From a bacterium (GTDB lineage: Bacteria > Armatimonadota > Fimbriimonadia > Fimbriimonadales > Fimbriimonadaceae): a DNA stretch of 64,000 bases. The stretch lies in assembly GCA_027483535.1 (NCBI GenBank), contig JAIXUN010000003.1:186001-250000 (forward strand), written 5' to 3'. A model generated the notes under the pieces. That model ran no database searches, was not told the DNA's origin, and saw only the letters and a list, made by a program, of their open reading frames with translations. The position numbers and the translations under genes were made by a program. Each line of letters starts with the position of its first letter. Positions within the stretch are counted from its first letter, which is position 1. Shown here piece by piece: positions 10,160-18,709 of the stretch.

Positions 10160-10280
10160 GAGGTCGTGAGTTCTCCAAAAGTCTACGCCGATGGTGCGAT
10201 CCGCGCTCGGGGGTCTTGGCGGAGAATGGGTGAACCGTTGCAGGTTAAGACACGTCCTGTGATTGGGGATCGGTATTTCA

Positions 10281-12014
10281 ATGGGACTTTTTCTGGCACT
10301 TGCACTCATCGGCACTCCAACGAGCGCGGCGATTTTTCAAGCAGCCGATAAGCCGATCACCATGCGTGAGGAGCTGATCACGATGGAAGAGTTCGGTCAG
10401 AAGCTCCAGACCGCCAGCGGGGTGACCATCGAAATCCCACGTCCCTATCGCGAACGCAAGCTCGACATTTTCGTCGACGATCTGCCCCTGAACCGGGTGC
10501 TTAAGGGAGTCGGCGATGCGCTGCGAGGTTATTGGCAGAAGACCGACACCGGCTACCGATTCGAGATCGAGACTCAGCAGCGGAATCTGGAAGAGCGTCT
10601 GCGGCAGATCGACGAGGTCGAGAGTGCCGAACAGGTGGAGGCTTTCTTTTTGGCGGCAGACGCTTTGAAGGAGATTGGTCCGGACCAGTTCAATATGAAT
10701 CTCGCCATCGAGTGGCGGAATAAGAAGACTCGGGGGATGGATCCCGCCGCGCCGGGGGCTCAGAAGTATTTCAAGGCTTTTGACGTGCTAACCCGAACGA
10801 CTTACCCCGGGCTTGGGTCAATCCCGGGATTGCTTGTTGCCGGGCAAATGAGCACCAAAGAACGGCAGCAGTTCTTGGACGGAGAAGCGTTTTACGTTTC
10901 GAGCAACTCCACTAACCTTGCCTCTAAGCCCAGGCTGGCTGGCTATTTTGAGAAGCAGTATGGTCCCGGCACCTTTCTTAATCTGCTCTCCGTCGACCCT
11001 GGATCTCGATCGGCGACGATCTTGACGATGCGGACTCCCAATTCCGACAAGCTGCAATTACCGCTCATGATGCAGTCGAACAGCCTGTTCAGCGGAAGCT
11101 GGATTTCCTCCAGTCCGACCGGGCTGGAAGGAACGCCATACGGGGAGGCTCTGAAAAAGTGGGAGACTGAAGAAGAGATCAGGAAGACGCTTGATTTCAA
11201 ACTCAAAAATGTTCCGAACCTCAGTCGTGGAGATTATCAGAACGGCTACTTCCGCGCCGCCGACTCCTTAAAATTCCTCAACCTCTACGGCGGGTTGAAC
11301 TGCATTGCCGAAGGCAACCGTCGGTACACAGGAAATCATCCCCTTCGCCCCCTGACCTCAAAGGCTTACGAGGTTTTGACGAGGTCATACGACCCTACCT
11401 TTGCCCATCTTCACTGGGAAAAGACTGCCTCTGGCCCCGGTCTTTTGGTCGTTCGAGACGCGGCTCACTGGCGCAATGTCCGCGAACCATCGGAGAAGGT
11501 TTTGCGCTGGGCTGAATCAAGGGTGGTCGACAAGAAGTTATCGAAAGAAGACTGGGGCACCCTCGCCGCCAACCTTTCGGTTTCGGAGTTTGCTCGCCTG
11601 GGCAACCTTGCCTTAAAGCTGCCTAGCTCGCCAGACGTGAACAAGTGGCTGGCGCTAAGACTTTATGGGAGCCTCACGGCCGAGCAGAAAGCGGCCCCGA
11701 GCGTCTCCCTTGCTTCCCTCTCTCCGGCTCAGCGGTCGATGGCACTCAGCGCATTCTTGCGAATCCTTGGGCAAAACGCGAGCAGTGAAAATGGGATTCA
11801 CCAAGCAGTGATCGATGGTGAATTTGAAGGCGCCGGGGTGGGCAAGTTGAACATCTACTTGGTCCGTACCGAGTCTTGGTTCCAGAAAACGCCGTTCAGT
11901 GCGTACGACAACCCAAACGTCTCGCCTAAGTTCCCAGACGATTACGAGAAACGGTCGGTGGAGGAGTTGCGCCTGGGTACGAGCGCGAAGAACTCCATCG
12001 GAATCGGGCTTTAG
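10281..12014 (+). CDS. Exported protein of unknown function, tandem paralog 1
   Basis: I do not recognise the family. ATG 10281 gives MGLFLALALIGTPTSAAIF, a short signal peptide, and matches exactly where the second paralog starts; TTG 10263 is also in frame. Residues 30-95 (LITMEEFGQKLQTASG, RERKLDIFVDDLPLNRVLKG) resemble the short STN-type domain at the N-terminus of secretins and TonB-dependent receptors, a fold-level guess. The remaining 450 residues have no recognised motif. The C-terminus VEELRLGTSAKNSIGIGL matches the paralog. It is probably periplasmic or surface-exposed. Confidence 0.8.
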   Translation: MGLFLALALIGTPTSAAIFQAADKPITMREELITMEEFGQKLQTASGVTIEIPRPYRERKLDIFVDDLPLNRVLKGVGDALRGYWQKTDTGYRFEIETQQRNLEERLRQIDEVESAEQVEAFFLAADALKEIGPDQFNMNLAIEWRNKKTRGMDPAAPGAQKYFKAFDVLTRTTYPGLGSIPGLLVAGQMSTKERQQFLDGEAFYVSSNSTNLASKPRLAGYFEKQYGPGTFLNLLSVDPGSRSATILTMRTPNSDKLQLPLMMQSNSLFSGSWISSSPTGLEGTPYGEALKKWETEEEIRKTLDFKLKNVPNLSRGDYQNGYFRAADSLKFLNLYGGLNCIAEGNRRYTGNHPLRPLTSKAYEVLTRSYDPTFAHLHWEKTASGPGLLVVRDAAHWRNVREPSEKVLRWAESRVVDKKLSKEDWGTLAANLSVSEFARLGNLALKLPSSPDVNKWLALRLYGSLTAEQKAAPSVSLASLSPAQRSMALSAFLRILGQNASSENGIHQAVIDGEFEGAGVGKLNIYLVRTESWFQKTPFSAYDNPNVSPKFPDDYEKRSVEELRLGTSAKNSIGIGL

Positions 12015-12135: not shown

Positions 12136-13836
12136 ATGGGACTTTTTCTTTCTCTCGCGATCACTTCGTTAGTCGCTATTCAAGAACCGGTTAAGAGGTT
12201 CACGATAGGTGAAGGGCTCATTACTCTGGAAGAATTCGGGAAACGAATTCAGAAGGAATCCGGAATCCAGATCGAAGTTCCGAAGCCTTACCGAGAGAGA
12301 AAGCTAGACATCTTCGTCAAGGACCTAGATCTATCCAGCCTATTGAAAGGGGTCGGGGACGCCCTGAGAGGCAAGTGGGTCAAGACCTCGACCGGTTTTC
12401 GATTTGAGATCGAAACCCAACAGCGGAATTTAGAAGACCGACTCCGAGCGGGAGATCGGGCGCGTGAAGAGGCGGAGGTTCAAGGACTCTTCCTTGCGGC
12501 AGACGCCCTGAAAGAGATCGGCGTAGCGAATTTGTCCGAAAAGAGCGCTACCGCGTGGGTCAAAAAGCGATCAAACGGCATATCGGAAAAGGATGCCGCC
12601 TACCAAAAGTTTGACGTCGCTCGGGACCATCTCCTCGGATACCGCAACAACGGAAAACCCCTGCTCACACCGCTCACATTTTTTGGGGCGATGAACCAAG
12701 ATGAGCGTCGCCGATTCTTGGAAGGGGAGGTCTTCTACTCTTCTCGGAACGGTTCGAACCTTCAGGTTCAGCCCAATCTCGACTCGCTTCTTTCAAACCA
12801 CGTCTCTGGAATGCCGTATCTAGTGACCGTTCGCTGTGATCCGGAATCCAACTCGACATCTTACAGCGAAGTCACGACCGCCTCTTTGGATCCTCGTAGC
12901 CGTCCAAATTGGTCTCGTCCAAAAGCGCTCTCGGGTGGAACTTTCGATTCTAGTGAGCCGGAACTCATCAAGGGGACAAGTTACGAAAAGGAGTTGAAGG
13001 CGTGGGAGAACGAAAGCGAGGTGGAGGCCGCGCTGGATGTTAGGTTCAAGAATCTTCCAACCCCGATGAAGGGTGTGTATAAGAACGGTTACTTCCGCAA
13101 CGGGGACATCCTAAGAGTTCTGCACGCCTATGCGGGAGTGAATTGCCTTGCGGAGGGTAACCGGGAAGTTATCAATGGTGAACCGCTAAAATCGCCGCCT
13201 TCCAGTGCATATGAGCTCCTGAGGACTTGCTTCAATCCCCTTTATCACGGGTTTCACCTTGAGAAACCAGGCAAGGGTCAGAACCTGTTAGTCGTTCGTT
13301 ATGCCTCGCACTGGCGAGCCGTGCTCGAACCGAACGAAGCTTTGCTGCGGACTATTGAGGCCAAGGTGATCGATGGGAAGCTTGCAAAAGAGGACTGGGC
13401 CGATCTTGCGGCTCAAACATCGCTGCGGCAATTCACTTCTCTGAATGGTCTGGCGACCAAGCTACCGGCTGCTCCCGATGCGACGAGATGGTTTGCCTAT
13501 CGGCTGTACGGCAGCTTGAATTCTGTGCAGAGGAAGGCCGGAGCCGTCCCCATCGCTCAACTATCTGCTTCCCAGCAGTTCAATGCGAGGCAGTTTCTGC
13601 TGCGATGTCTCCACCAAAGGTCGCCTTTCGAAGACGGTCTTCATGAGCTACTCATGAGCCCCGAGTTTGAAACTCGGGGGTGGGCAAGTTTGTCTTTGTT
13701 CATTGTTCGCAAGCCCCCTACCGCTCCCGGATCAGATCGGCGCACGGGTCCAGACGGTCGAGAAGTGAACGAGACCTTCGTTGACGAACTCCGGATCGGC
13801 ATGAGCATCGAGAAGTCTGTCGGGATCGGGATCTAG
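12136..13836 (+). CDS. Exported protein of unknown function, tandem paralog 2
   Basis: This 566-residue paralog of the preceding gene lies 121 bp downstream on the same strand. Shared blocks include PYRERKLDIFV, GVGDALRG and FEIETQQRNLE near the N-terminus, NGYFR and GVNCLAEGNR in the middle, and a closing VDELRIGMSIEKSVGIGI. The N-terminus is strongly conserved and the centre diverged, so this is an old tandem duplication. A short signal peptide (MGLFLSLAITSLVAIQ) is present. Function unknown; the STN-like N-terminal domain suggests interaction with another envelope protein. Confidence 0.8.
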   Translation: MGLFLSLAITSLVAIQEPVKRFTIGEGLITLEEFGKRIQKESGIQIEVPKPYRERKLDIFVKDLDLSSLLKGVGDALRGKWVKTSTGFRFEIETQQRNLEDRLRAGDRAREEAEVQGLFLAADALKEIGVANLSEKSATAWVKKRSNGISEKDAAYQKFDVARDHLLGYRNNGKPLLTPLTFFGAMNQDERRRFLEGEVFYSSRNGSNLQVQPNLDSLLSNHVSGMPYLVTVRCDPESNSTSYSEVTTASLDPRSRPNWSRPKALSGGTFDSSEPELIKGTSYEKELKAWENESEVEAALDVRFKNLPTPMKGVYKNGYFRNGDILRVLHAYAGVNCLAEGNREVINGEPLKSPPSSAYELLRTCFNPLYHGFHLEKPGKGQNLLVVRYASHWRAVLEPNEALLRTIEAKVIDGKLAKEDWADLAAQTSLRQFTSLNGLATKLPAAPDATRWFAYRLYGSLNSVQRKAGAVPIAQLSASQQFNARQFLLRCLHQRSPFEDGLHELLMSPEFETRGWASLSLFIVRKPPTAPGSDRRTGPDGREVNETFVDELRIGMSIEKSVGIGI

Positions 13837-13872: not shown

Positions 13873-14091
13873 TTTGGTCCTCGCCATTTGGATAGCGAAT
13901 GATCTCGAATCCAACCCTGCTCTGTTCGAATTCATCCAGTGTTTTCGCGTTGCAGGGCATTTGCTTCGCAGTACCCAAATCGGCTCGCGAGCGTCCTCTC
14001 CTCGATCGTGGAGATCACGAGCGAGAACAGACTCATCACAGCGATCCATGTAGGCGAATGCCAAATTATCGTCATACAAATCGCAATGCAT
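13873..14091 (-). pseudogene. Possible frameshifted small gene, divergent from the toxin-antitoxin pair
   Basis: The 272-bp gap before the antitoxin holds two protein-like minus-strand segments in different frames. The first starts at ATG 14091 (MHCDLYDDNLAFAYMDRCDE, through EDAREPIWVL). The second, in another frame, reads KTLDEFEQSRVGFEIIRYPN and ends at a stop near 13847. Both are charged and lack low-complexity bias, as if one short gene suffered a frameshift near 13960. I recognise no family, and chance open frames are possible. Confidence 0.25.
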
Positions 14092-14097
14092 TATGGT

Positions 14098-14110
14098 ATA
14101 CATATTGTAT
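14098..14110. promoter_or_regulatory. Palindrome over the antitoxin start (probable autoregulatory operator)
   Basis: ATACA-TAT-TGTAT is a perfect 5-bp inverted repeat that overlaps the antitoxin start codon at 14109. Ribbon-helix-helix antitoxins commonly repress their own operon from such short palindromes. The overlapping TATACA (14097-14102), 6 nt before the ATG, could also serve as the -10 box of a leaderless transcript. Confidence 0.5.
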
Positions 14111-14360
14111 GTCAAGTACAATTCAGAAAAGCTTCCGTTTGCCAATCGACGTCATTGGAGTCCTTGACCAACAAGTAAACGCAACGGAATTTGTTGTTGA
14201 AGCTATTCGTGAGAAGCAGCGACGCGACGAGGAGGAACTATTCAGGAGCTCTGCGCGGCGAATTGCATCTCTTAGCGATTCATGCGGTGGAGACGCGGAC
14301 ATCGAATGGGCGATGGCAGCCCAGGCAGAAATCCTTGGGGAATCCAGCATTGAGAAGTAA
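14109..14360 (+). CDS. Ribbon-helix-helix antitoxin
   Basis: This 83-residue protein starts MSSTIQKSFRLPIDVIGVLD. The pattern IQKSFRLP followed by a helix and ATEFVVEAIREKQRR fits a ribbon-helix-helix DNA-binding domain in residues 1-45. A flexible acidic C-terminus, which would wrap the toxin, follows. It partly overlaps the downstream MazF/PemK-type toxin, the usual antitoxin-first order. It should repress its own promoter and neutralise the toxin. Longer upstream starts are rejected because residues before this ATG are not protein-like. Confidence 0.8.
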   Translation: MSSTIQKSFRLPIDVIGVLDQQVNATEFVVEAIREKQRRDEEELFRSSARRIASLSDSCGGDADIEWAMAAQAEILGESSIEK

Positions 14361-14724
14361 ACGTCCCATCCAAAGGGGCGACATCTGGTGGGTCGATTTC
14401 AATCCAGCAAGAGGTTCAGAACAGGCTGGTAGAAGACCTGCTCTCGTGCTACAAGCAGATTTATTGACGTCTCAGGGTGTTCGAACTGTTGTGGTCGCGG
14501 CAATGTCCACCGGGTCCCACGGACCGGAAAGTTTGGGGGATGATCTGATTCACATCAACGTCGAGCCAAGTCGACTAAATGGACTTGTTCATTCAGGCGT
14601 TGTGAAGTGCGAGCAACTTTTGACCGTTGCAGTTGATCGGCTGGAAACGTATAGCGGGGTCCTTGAACCCAGATTGCTTCAAAAGGTTGAGCGTGCTCTT
14701 CGGGTTATTCTCAGTCTTGGATAG
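14350..14724 (+). CDS. MazF/PemK-family endoribonuclease toxin
   Basis: The family core begins RGDIWWVDFNPARGSEQAGR then RPALVLQAD, the MazF/PemK signature (RGDIWWV, G.EQ.G.RP.LV). VVVAAMSTGS, the SGVVKCEQLLTV strand and a C-terminal helix (VERALRVILSLG) follow. These toxins cut single-stranded mRNA at short motifs. I start it at TTG 14350, which overlaps the antitoxin stop by 11 bp and has GGGGAA about 8 nt upstream, giving a 124-residue protein of normal length. Earlier in-frame starts would add non-homologous sequence. Confidence 0.88.
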   Translation: MRSKRPIQRGDIWWVDFNPARGSEQAGRRPALVLQADLLTSQGVRTVVVAAMSTGSHGPESLGDDLIHINVEPSRLNGLVHSGVVKCEQLLTVAVDRLETYSGVLEPRLLQKVERALRVILSLG

Positions 14725-14802: not shown

Positions 14803-15213
14803 GTGAGCGGCGTCGACTTGGAACTGATTCGGAACACCCTGCGCCTAGCCGCCGAGCGGGGTTACGCCGAAGTAGAACTGGAAACCGAAACCGATCGGTT
14901 CCACGCCATTCTCCCCAACAAGCCCAAGAAGGCGACCAAGCCTTCCACGAGCGCAGGGGGTTCAGAAGCCGAACCCACCGGACCCGCCACCGCCGACATC
15001 AAGAGTCAATGGGTGGGTTACTACCGAGCCAAAGAGGGCGCTCTTGAACTAGACGCCGAAGTGAAAGCCGGAGACGTGGTCGCCGTTATTGGAGCCCTGG
15101 GACACGGACACGATGTCGAAGCTCCACAGTCTGGCAAAGTTGTGGAAGTGCTGGTTGAAGATGGCGCGCCTGTGCAATTCGGTCAGGTTCTTGCCCGCAT
15201 CGAAATCGGCTAA
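14803..15213 (+). CDS. accB: AccB-like biotin carboxyl carrier domain protein lacking the biotinyl lysine
   Basis: This 136-residue protein has AccB architecture: an N-terminal helical part (LELIRNTLRLAAERGYAEVE), a Pro/Ser/Lys linker (residues 40-62), and a lipoyl/biotinyl beta-sandwich (65-136). It ends in APQSGKVVEVLVEDGAPVQF, matching the strands that follow the biotin site in true BCCP. At the site, where AMKM is expected, it reads A98-L-G100-H: the acceptor lysine is glycine (codon GGA 15100-15102). It therefore should not be biotinylated. It sits 438 bp upstream of accC in the same direction. It may be a structural or regulatory partner, or a decaying gene; a true BCCP should exist elsewhere. 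Confidence 0.85.
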   Translation: MSGVDLELIRNTLRLAAERGYAEVELETETDRFHAILPNKPKKATKPSTSAGGSEAEPTGPATADIKSQWVGYYRAKEGALELDAEVKAGDVVAVIGALGHGHDVEAPQSGKVVEVLVEDGAPVQFGQVLARIEIG

Positions 15214-15232: not shown

Positions 15233-15631
15233 ATGGCCAATTCTCCCCTCCGCAAGCTTCAAAGACAGCGCGGAAACACTCTTGCCAACATCATGATCAG
15301 CCTGGTGATCATTGCCATTCTGGCGGGTGGAGTGATGTACGGCACCGGTAGCTTTGGCCCCGGGAAGTCTTCTCGAAAAGACGGCAAAGGCACCACGGTG
15401 CTAGGCGCCACCAAAGCAAAAGCCCAAGACACGGTTTGCCAAAGCAACCTCAGCCAGATTCGGCAGATTGTCGAGGTTCAAAAAACGTTAGACGAGCCTT
15501 TGCCCGCGACCATTGCCGAGCTTCCCAGCGCCGGTTCGCTCACCAACTGCCCCATCGGCAAAGAAGCGTATCAATTTGATTCTGCCTCCGGCGCGGTGCG
15601 ATGCCCGCACCCCGGCCACGAGGCTTACTAA
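15233..15631 (+). CDS. Type IV prepilin-like protein with N-terminal pilin helix
   Basis: This 132-residue protein has a basic leader (MANSPLRKLQRQRG), then NTLANIMISLVIIAILAGG, a pilin-type transmembrane helix directly after the cleavage glycine. The usual glutamate at mature position 5 is Asn. The soluble part has the pattern CQSNLSQIRQIVEVQKTLDE, TNCPIGKEAYQFD and RCPHPGH, common in type II secretion or competence pseudopilins that end with a Cys-Pro loop. AGGA precedes the start. Its placement between accB-like and accC is odd and is probably just shared transcription. Confidence 0.75.
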   Translation: MANSPLRKLQRQRGNTLANIMISLVIIAILAGGVMYGTGSFGPGKSSRKDGKGTTVLGATKAKAQDTVCQSNLSQIRQIVEVQKTLDEPLPATIAELPSAGSLTNCPIGKEAYQFDSASGAVRCPHPGHEAY

Positions 15632-15650: not shown

Positions 15651-17006
15651 ATGTTCTCCAAAGTCTTAATCGCCAACCGTGGAGAGATCGCTTGCCGAGT
15701 GATCCGCGCCTGCCGTGAAATGGGGGTGAAAACCGTTGCCGTCTACAGCGAAGCCGATAGCGAAAGTCTGCACGTGAAGCTCGCCGACGAAGCGGTTTGC
15801 GTGGGTATGGGCACCAACGCCGACTCTTATTTGAACCTAGCGAACATCCTTATGGCGTGCCAAATCTCGGGCGCAGAGGCGGTTCACCCGGGTTACGGAT
15901 ACTTCAGCGAGCGAGCCAACTTTGCGGTTGCGCTGCGATCGCTGGGCATCGCATTCATTGGTCCCCCACCCGAAGCGATTGAAGCCATGGGCGACAAAGC
16001 AAGCGCGAAGGTCGCGGCGATCGCCGCGGGCTGTCCGGTGGTGCCTGGTTCAGATGGATCGGTGCCTTCCGATGTGGAAGCGCTTACGGTTGCGGAAGAG
16101 ATCGGCTACCCGGTGCTTCTGAAGGCAGTAGCAGGTGGCGGCGGTCGAGGCATTCGCCGAGTCGACGCGCCCGAAGAGCTCGCGGGTCTTTGGAAGACGG
16201 CTCAGGCTGAAGCGCAAGCATCGTTCGGATCGGGCGAGATTCTGATTGAGAAGTGCGTGGATCGACCCCGCCACGTCGAGATCCAAATTCTTGCCGACTC
16301 CCATGGCAACGCGGTTTATCTCGGCGAGCGCGAGTGCTCGATTCAGAACCTCCGACACCAGAAGCTGATCGAAGAGGCCCCGTACACCGATCTTCCTGCC
16401 GAGGTTCGAAAAGCGATGGGTGAAGCGGCAGTTCGAGTCGCTCTCTCGGTGGGTTACGTCAACGCGGGAACGGTGGAGTTCCTGGTCGACGACGACTTCA
16501 ACTTCTACTTCCTGGAGATGAACACCCGACTCCAGGTGGAGCACCCGGTGACCGAAGAGATCACGGGGCTCGATATCGTTCACCTCATGCTCAAGATTGC
16601 GGCGGGCGAAAAGCTGCCGATCACTCAGGACGATGTGAACCTTTCCGGTCACTCCATCGAGGCTCGCATCACGGCTCAGGACCCAGATAACGACTTCGCA
16701 CCCAGCACGGGTTGCATCACCGGGTGGCGACCTCCGATGGGTCGCAACATCCGGATGGAGTCTCACTGCTACGCGGGTCTGGTGGTAAGCCCCTATTACG
16801 ATCCCCTTCTCGCGAAGCTGATCGTCAACGGTCGAACCCGAGAAGAGGCGGTTCGCAAGCTGCAGTGCGCGTTGGAAGAGTTTGACGTTGAGGGAATCAA
16901 GACGAACATCCCGTTCCTTCGCCGGATCGTGAACAGCGAAGGCTTCCAAGCCAACAAGTTCGATACGCGATGGGTGGGCCGCTTCATGGCGGGAGAAGGA
17001 CGCTGA
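15651..17006 (+). CDS. accC: Acetyl-CoA carboxylase biotin carboxylase subunit (AccC)
   Basis: AccC carboxylates biotin on BCCP using ATP and bicarbonate. The 451-residue protein starts MFSKVLIANRGEIACRVIRA, the canonical N-terminus. It has the ATP-grasp glycine loop (KAVAGGGGRGIRRV), VEIQILADSHGN, ECSIQNLRHQKLIEEAP, the metal/ATP site EFLVDDDFNFYFLEMNTRLQ and then VEHPVTEEITG. Length and motifs are normal. The start at ATG 15651 is fixed by this homology; the 46 upstream in-frame codons overlap the pilin-like gene. Its neighbouring AccB-like protein cannot carry biotin. Confidence 0.97.
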   Translation: MFSKVLIANRGEIACRVIRACREMGVKTVAVYSEADSESLHVKLADEAVCVGMGTNADSYLNLANILMACQISGAEAVHPGYGYFSERANFAVALRSLGIAFIGPPPEAIEAMGDKASAKVAAIAAGCPVVPGSDGSVPSDVEALTVAEEIGYPVLLKAVAGGGGRGIRRVDAPEELAGLWKTAQAEAQASFGSGEILIEKCVDRPRHVEIQILADSHGNAVYLGERECSIQNLRHQKLIEEAPYTDLPAEVRKAMGEAAVRVALSVGYVNAGTVEFLVDDDFNFYFLEMNTRLQVEHPVTEEITGLDIVHLMLKIAAGEKLPITQDDVNLSGHSIEARITAQDPDNDFAPSTGCITGWRPPMGRNIRMESHCYAGLVVSPYYDPLLAKLIVNGRTREEAVRKLQCALEEFDVEGIKTNIPFLRRIVNSEGFQANKFDTRWVGRFMAGEGR

Positions 17007-17833
17007 TAACCGCCAGTTTTAGACGGGTCTCTCGTGAAGCGGCGCTGCGCGCGCTGTACATGGTAGACACGGGCGAAGCAACCATCAAATCGGCTCTGGA
17101 GGTCTCTATGACGGCCCTAGAAGACGAGGAGTACGGCAAGCAATGGAGCGGTGGCTACAAGTATCTCGACCTCGCTCGCGACCTCATTGAGCAGTACGCC
17201 GAGGACCTGGCACGAGGCGCTTGGCAAGAGCGTCGAGAGCTGGACTATCGCATTGCGGATGTGACGCCGGACTTCGATCTGGATCGACTCTCCATCATCG
17301 ATCTCAACATCCTGCGCATCTCGCTTTACGAACTCGAGTTCATGCCTTACATCGCCCCGGCGGTGACCATCGACCAGGCGCTTGAGATCGCCAAGCGGTA
17401 CTCCACCATCGAGAGTCCGCGATTCATCAACGGCGTTTTGGCAACCCTGGCCTCACGCTCGTTCAAATCGGATTGGGACCCGGAGCGCGCTCCGGAAGAT
17501 CCGGCGAAGGAGCAGATGGAGCGTTTGAACGCGTTGCTCAAGATTCGTAACGCAGAAGATGCGCGTCGAAAGGCTCTTGCCGCAGCGGCAGCGGAAGCTG
17601 AAGCGGCCGATGACTCTGAATTTGAGGAAGAAGAATCAACCGTCGGCGGCTGGAGACTGCGCTCGAACGCCGAAGACGTAGAGGACTCGGACGAGTCGGA
17701 AGAGCTCACCGAAGACTTTGAGGAATTGGACGAACCAGATGAAGCCGATTCGCTGGAACTGGACTCGCCGGAACCAGATTCGCTTGAAGCAGTGGACTCG
17801 CCAACAGACAAAGAGTCTCCCTTAACCCCCTGA
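16970..17833 (+). CDS. nusB: NusB transcription antitermination factor with acidic C-terminal tail
   Basis: NusB binds boxA RNA with NusE and promotes rRNA antitermination. The NusB fold covers about residues 18-165: SREAALRALYMVDTGEA, LSIIDLNILRISLYELEF, APAVTIDQALEIAKRYS, RFINGVLATLA. An unusual tail of about 110 residues follows, dominated by Glu, Asp and Ser. The start is uncertain. ATG 16970 overlaps accC by 37 bp and lacks a ribosome-binding site, whereas GGAGAAGGA at 16992-17000 would serve a rare CTG at 17003. Confidence 0.9.
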   Translation: MGGPLHGGRRTLITASFRRVSREAALRALYMVDTGEATIKSALEVSMTALEDEEYGKQWSGGYKYLDLARDLIEQYAEDLARGAWQERRELDYRIADVTPDFDLDRLSIIDLNILRISLYELEFMPYIAPAVTIDQALEIAKRYSTIESPRFINGVLATLASRSFKSDWDPERAPEDPAKEQMERLNALLKIRNAEDARRKALAAAAAEAEAADDSEFEEEESTVGGWRLRSNAEDVEDSDESEELTEDFEELDEPDEADSLELDSPEPDSLEAVDSPTDKESPLTP

Positions 17834-17851: not shown

Positions 17852-18709
17852 ATGACTGCCACCCTTCTAGACGGACTCGCCCTTTCCAAAATTGTTCGAG
17901 AAGACCTGAAGAAGCGGGTCGATGCGTTGCGCGCCAAGGGAATCGTCCCTCGGCTAGACGTAGTGGTGGCGGCTCAAGACCCCGCTTCGCTGGCGTACGT
18001 GCGCATGAAGCGAAAGTGGGCGGAAGCGGCAGGCATGCTCGGCGAGGCTTACGAGATCACCGAGGCGACCTCGCAGGCGGAACTCCTAGACCTTCTCCAC
18101 AAGCTCAATGCCAACCCATCTGTCCACGGCGTGTTGCTTCAGCACCCGTTGCCGAAGCACTTGGACGAGGATGAGGCCCTGCTTGCTCTGGGACCAGAGA
18201 AGGACGTCGACGGAATCACTCCGCAGTCTTTGGGCCGGCTAGTGGCAGACCTTCCCGGGTTCCGCTGCGCCACGCCGCTAGGTATCACGAAGATCCTGGA
18301 TCATTACAAGATCGACTGCACAGGCAAGCAGGCGGTGGTCATTGGTCGCTCCGTGATTTTGGGCAAGCCCATGGCGCTGATGCTGCTGCAAAAGAATGCA
18401 ACGGTGACGGTGGCTCATTCCAAGACCGTGAATCTTCCCGACCTTTGTCGAACGGCCGATATTTTGGTTGCGGCGGTGGGTCGAGCGGAGATGGTGAAGG
18501 GCGACTGGATCAAGCCGGGCGCGGTTGTGATCGATGCGGGTTACAACAAGGTCGAGGGTCGAAAGTTTGACGTGGGCGACGTGGAGTTCGAATCTGCTGC
18601 ACTGGTCGCTTCGGCGATTACGCCGGTCCCCGGTGGCGTCGGTCCGATGACGGTTGCGAGTCTGCTTGCCAACTGCGTAGAAGCGGCTGAGCTCAAAGTA
18701 GCCGAGTGA
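17852..18709 (+). CDS. folD: Methylenetetrahydrofolate dehydrogenase/cyclohydrolase (FolD)
   Basis: FolD interconverts methylene-, methenyl- and 10-formyl-tetrahydrofolate with NADP. The 285-residue protein has the catalytic YVRMKRK region, GVLLQHPLPKHLDEDEAL, EKDVDGITPQSLGRL, the dinucleotide-binding VVIGRSVILGKPMALMLLQ, and the C-terminal ITPVPGGVGPMTVASLLANC. All are family signatures, and length is normal. It lies 18 bp after nusB and overlaps the aldo/keto reductase start, so it is probably cotranscribed. Confidence 0.97.
   Translation: MTATLLDGLALSKIVREDLKKRVDALRAKGIVPRLDVVVAAQDPASLAYVRMKRKWAEAAGMLGEAYEITEATSQAELLDLLHKLNANPSVHGVLLQHPLPKHLDEDEALLALGPEKDVDGITPQSLGRLVADLPGFRCATPLGITKILDHYKIDCTGKQAVVIGRSVILGKPMALMLLQKNATVTVAHSKTVNLPDLCRTADILVAAVGRAEMVKGDWIKPGAVVIDAGYNKVEGRKFDVGDVEFESAALVASAITPVPGGVGPMTVASLLANCVEAAELKVAE

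Follow-up and report, generated by a model that had tools for sequence, protein, structure and literature searches.

Acetyl-CoA carboxylase (ACC) catalyzes the first committed step of fatty-acid synthesis. In plants, this enzyme is accompanied by BADC proteins, which are homologs of the biotin carboxyl carrier protein (BCCP) that lack the AMKL motif, bind both biotin carboxylase (BC) and BCCP and promote assembly; they are 25–30% identical to the true carrier and have been called unique to the plant enzyme (PMC11926652). They have been described both as inhibitors and as assembly glue (PMC11926652). Bacillus YqhY is likewise a non-catalytic protein encoded in the acc operon and can restrain ACCase (PMC5437119). 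The arrangement of AccC and its carrier also varies in Chloroflexus aurantiacus, where BC and BCCP are fused and the BCCP hairpin makes the tetramer; that carrier keeps its lysine, and the accessible part of the report describes no lysine-less paralog (PMC11077971). The portion of the open-access literature that was available yielded no bacterial lysine-less BCCP companion, which is weak evidence as subscription papers, including the main BADC ones, mostly fall outside its scope. Non-catalytic BCCP homologs have so far been described as special to plants, and we here report a bacterial set of lysine-less homologs.

The window, by which we mean the whole 64,000-nucleotide stretch of DNA analysed, encodes a BCCP-like protein, AccB2, close to accC (Table 1). 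The initial annotation held that the AMKM motif of this protein is replaced, with a glycine in place of the lysine. Inspection of the codon and a gapless alignment to E. coli BCCP, using a sequence that we take to be that of the E. coli protein, confirmed this assignment, as Gly100 falls opposite the biotinyl lysine (VEAMKMMNQIEA in AccB2 versus IGALGHGHDVEA in E. coli BCCP). The site reads IGALGHGHD, and the acceptor lysine of an E-x-M-K-M type motif is absent. AccB2 matches Pfam Biotin_lipoyl at 4e-9 and a profile of the AccB2 family matches the E. coli BCCP chain 4hr7_B at 8.9e-15, while the score of AccB2 against the curated AccB family TIGR00531 (36.4 bits) is below the cut-off of 115.2. 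The profile match between AccB2 and true AccBs is full-length and includes the N-terminal part (columns 6–136, probability 99.9), and AccB2 is 30% identical to the true carrier over 98 residues. On these comparisons, AccB2 is a descendant of a biotin carrier in which the normal biotinylation site is gone.

Table 1. Coordinates of accB2, its parts and its neighbours within the window.
Feature	Position	Strand	Basis
accB2, lysine-less biotin-carboxyl-carrier-like protein, 136 aa, GTG start	14803..15213	+	ORF, Pfam, orthologs, profiles
N-terminal helix (6–19) and two strands (23–27, 32–36), equivalent of the true AccB N-terminal region; putative AccC-binding part	14815..14910	+	AlphaFold2, AccB1 profile alignment
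C-terminal biotinyl-type barrel, predicted intact, pLDDT 94–98	14986..15207	+	AlphaFold2, Foldseek
Shortened thumb loop of 14 residues; 19 residues in each of the 30 measured AccB1 copies and in E. coli BCCP	15013..15057	+	Alignment
Gly100 codon GGA, aligned with the biotinylated lysine; same residue in all 30 family orthologs	15100..15102	+	Codon and alignment
Pilin-like ORF, N-methylation-like N-terminus below cut-off, between accB2 and accC	15233..15631	+	
accC, biotin carboxylase with retained active-site motifs; no other ACC-type copy found in the genome	15654..17006	+	
nusB, conserved neighbour, ORF start uncertain	16970..17833	+	
folD, conserved neighbour	17852..18709	+	

In the AlphaFold2 model, AccB2 has two parts joined by a looser linker: an N-terminal helix and hairpin predicted with confidence, and a barrel of very high confidence. 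When the model was searched with Foldseek, the best solved match was 1bdo, the E. coli BCCP biotinyl domain. The fold had been described as intact apart from the biotinylation motif; this stands for the predicted barrel but not for the thumb loop, which is five residues shorter. Across the AccB2 copies read, the thumb is mostly 14 residues long, the 19-residue form being kept in 19/100. Thus, AccB2 shares with AccB (TIGR00531) the N-terminal helix-hairpin, the linker, the biotinyl barrel and the efp-accB-accC-nusB-folD setting, but differs from it in the missing acceptor lysine, the thumb deletion and the score.

The glycine at the lysine site is invariant among 30 AccB2 orthologs from 18 genera of the window genome's family (30/30), mostly within the motif ALG[LI]xND, and none of these 30 orthologs has a lysine in the hairpin. 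Estimates of dN/dS from close, non-saturated pairs are ~0.06–0.13, values that are rough because synonymous sites are saturated in several pairs, and the reading frames are intact throughout the phylum. By these estimates AccB2 is under purifying selection. The loss is therefore retained in relatives, rather than all close relatives keeping the lysine, and the invariant Gly100 together with purifying selection excludes chance, a sequencing error and a local mutation. The dN/dS values likewise led us to reject the possibility that AccB2 is a pseudogene.

A true BCCP had been expected elsewhere in the genome and was found. AccB1 (C1:1184556-1185029) carries EAMKVYSDI and a full thumb and adjoins a thioesterase-like gene rather than accC; a genome devoid of any other carrier is thereby excluded. 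The AccB1 lysine is kept in all 50 copies read (30 loci and 20 further genomes, mostly from lineages with a lysine-less AccB2), and the first 30 of these have a 19-residue thumb loop. The partner accC, also described as intact at the outset, does retain its active-site motifs, and in the alignment to solved biotin carboxylases, read by eye with reference to the E. coli enzyme, the catalytic residues are apparently in place. Beside its catalytic loop, the window AccC has a one-residue insertion, reading CSIQNLRHQK in place of the CSxQRRHQK found in most biotin carboxylases. The insertion was considered as a trait that might vary with the AccB2 lysine and was dismissed, since it occurs commonly in the phylum both where the lysine is kept and where it is missing. 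A second biotin carboxylase gene (C1:814923), whose product is 49% identical to the window AccC, lies beside an enoyl-CoA hydratase gene, and a further biotinyl protein is encoded next to an HMG-CoA-lyase-like gene. This second accC set, together with the further biotinyl protein, is probably a methylcrotonyl-CoA carboxylase (MCC). Its identity level, its enoyl-CoA hydratase context and its MCC-like appearance led us to discard it as the true ACC partner.

The gene order efp, membrane protein, accB2, pilin-like ORF, accC, nusB and folD recurs in many loci across the phylum, with the identity of efp backed by Pfam in three of them; the window differs in that the gene immediately upstream of accB2 is not efp. 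An accC gene was located within a few kb of AccB2 in 90/100 loci. The corresponding order in Bacillus subtilis is efp-accB-accC-yqhY-nusB-folD. The shared setting indicates that AccB2 occupies the ordinary accB position and that the working carrier is the unlinked copy. An accB gene beside accC is thus often not the functional carrier in Armatimonadota, which is a warning for annotation. In most of the phylum's loci, the pilin-like ORF separates accB2 from accC. Many relatives encode a membrane-type protein (L061:3057-4187 and its equivalents) between efp and accB2; it has no Pfam match.

Two paralogs are the rule in this phylum. An AccB match was obtained in 283/291 Armatimonadota genomes, most of which have two, and with a broader profile all of the 60 genomes searched matched, nearly all with two or more; the AccB1 and AccB2 pair is present in nearly every Armatimonadota genome. 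Among the 100 AccB2 copies read, most of them beside accC, the lysine is present in 31 and replaced in 69 (G 41, R 15, H 4, D 3, N 3, T 2, S 1), and both states occur within families 6, 12, 13 and 21. In the 31 loci with the lysine, AccB2 may still be a carrier. A tree built from the adjacent AccC, a sequence independent of the trait, requires at least 14 changes between presence and absence of the lysine, nine of which are forced by starred branches; the tree is a quick one with SH-aLRT support only, and parsimony does not distinguish loss from gain. As lysine is the ancestral BCCP state, the changes are naturally read as losses, and the many independent losses are natural replicates for the role of a lysine-less carrier in ACC.

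Two reduced genomes of the window's family (G152 and G153, 1.5 Mb, 97% complete) provide a further link to ACC. Neither has an AccB2 match, a clear AccB1 (best 1.8e-6) or an ACC-type accC, and all of their accD matches are below the cut-off. Both keep the MCC-like set, and their sole accC is MCC-like. The joint absence of AccB2, AccB1, the ACC-type AccC and a typical AccD, observed in this single lineage, connects AccB2 with that enzyme.

Chloroflexota also carry lysine-less AccB paralogs, in which the site is occupied by N, G, D, R or Q; they were identified by a scan of the collection and in a sample of 251 genomes (loci L198, L203, L217, L236 and many of L295–L334). In the three neighbourhoods read, these copies lie beside aroQ, pepP or xseA and not accC, and a lysine-bearing AccB is also present in the four genomes that were searched whole. 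In the AccB tree, AccB2 and the lysine-less proteins of Chloroflexota fall on one side of a starred branch, with ordinary BCCPs and the lysine-bearing AccBs from both phyla on the other. Inner support in this tree is weak (67/120 branches are open), and the grouping may partly reflect long branches or shared constraint at the site. By comparison, seven genomes from other phyla contain one AccB each, with one exception, where the second match lies inside a long frame, and 143/146 cyanobacterial genomes matched at E 1e-12, mostly with a single match (counts of matches, with the sequences unread), a pattern that does not point to descent shared with plant BADC through plastids. On balance we favour, with some reserve, the view that Armatimonadota and Chloroflexota possess an ancient second AccB lineage that lost its lysine repeatedly and was kept as a non-catalytic ACC subunit, an independent bacterial counterpart of plant BADC.

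Taken together, the invariant glycine, purifying selection, the lysine-bearing AccB1, synteny with accC, repeated lysine loss, joint absence with ACC, N-terminal homology, the two-part model and the precedent of BADC suggest that AccB2 is likely a non-catalytic acetyl-CoA carboxylase subunit that binds AccC and AccB1 and works like plant BADC. A putative structural or regulatory role on AccC and AccB, along the lines of the initial annotation, is the best explanation. AccB2 would bind AccC through its N-terminal part and stand in for part of the AccB1 complement of the AccC-AccB sub-complex, and it would thereby set either assembly of the sub-complex or the share of active carriers, with CO2 being carried by AccB1 alone. 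Three observations stand against the subunit reading, namely that AccB2 keeps the lysine in 31/100 loci and may still be a carrier there, that the Chloroflexota lysine-less copies are away from accC in the stretches seen and that the AccB tree is weak inside.

The likeness to BADC1-3 of plastid ACC is that of a BCCP homolog that lacks the biotinylation motif, coexists with a true BCCP and has low identity to it; Arabidopsis BADCs also have a glycine at the lysine site. AccB2 differs in being bacterial rather than from a plant, in its accB position beside accC and in its shortened thumb loop. We do not claim BADC membership for AccB2. With YqhY (Asp23 family, from the B. subtilis accBC-yqhY operon), AccB2 shares a predicted non-catalytic nature and a gene location with accBC, but the two belong to different protein families and the comparison is one of working only.

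Among the alternatives, the one that overlaps with the subunit reading is that AccB2 is purely an ACC inhibitor, which would compete with AccB1 for AccC sites and have no part in assembly. We view this as unlikely, although it has precedents, as inhibition by plant BADC was suggested by in vivo studies cited in PMC11926652 and Bacillus YqhY, encoded with accBC, is a proposed ACCase inhibitor (PMC5437119). However, PMC11926652 also cites later work, both in vitro and genetic, that favours assembly, and a dispensable brake would be less expected than a subunit to persist, as AccB2 does, in nearly all genomes that have ACC. We lean toward a net effect of AccB2 as glue rather than brake, a distinction for which this bacterial set provides a simple system. 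AccB2 could also carry a group by other means, or it could serve another enzyme, or the system of its pilin-like neighbour, as carrier or scaffold instead of ACC. The strangely conserved position of the pilin-like ORF between accB2 and accC and the lysine kept in 31/100 relatives would be in keeping with such a function; we nonetheless hold it to be quite improbable, as family members have no hairpin lysine and the reduced genomes lack both AccB2 and the ACC genes but keep the MCC-like carboxylase.

We give little credence to AccB2 as a decoy or sensor of the biotin ligase BirA, that is, a protein that binds the ligase, is not biotinylatable and tunes biotinylation or control of the biotin operon. 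While the barrel recognised by BirA is retained and the acceptor lysine is gone, AccB2 keeps the full N-terminal part, which a ligase substrate does not need, its thumb loop is shortened, and it is linked to accC, with no birA among the neighbours examined. Least credible is a decaying leftover, a resident accB made redundant when a second copy took over and drifting since. Such a history would account for a protein in the conserved accB position with catalysis assigned to an unlinked copy, and for the wide variation of the site residue between families, but it is largely refuted by dN/dS values of 0.06–0.13, frames that are intact across the phylum and the family-wide invariance of the glycine. 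The non-catalytic subunit thus remains our preferred reading of AccB2.

Further ORFs lie upstream of accB2 in the window. The product of the ORF at 14191–14724, just upstream, has a MazF/PemK-type look by eye, with a possible partner within 13899–14360. Two long adjacent ORFs, at 10263–12014 and 12136–13836, encode mutually similar proteins with signal-like N-termini, the second of which has no Pfam match over the cut-off.
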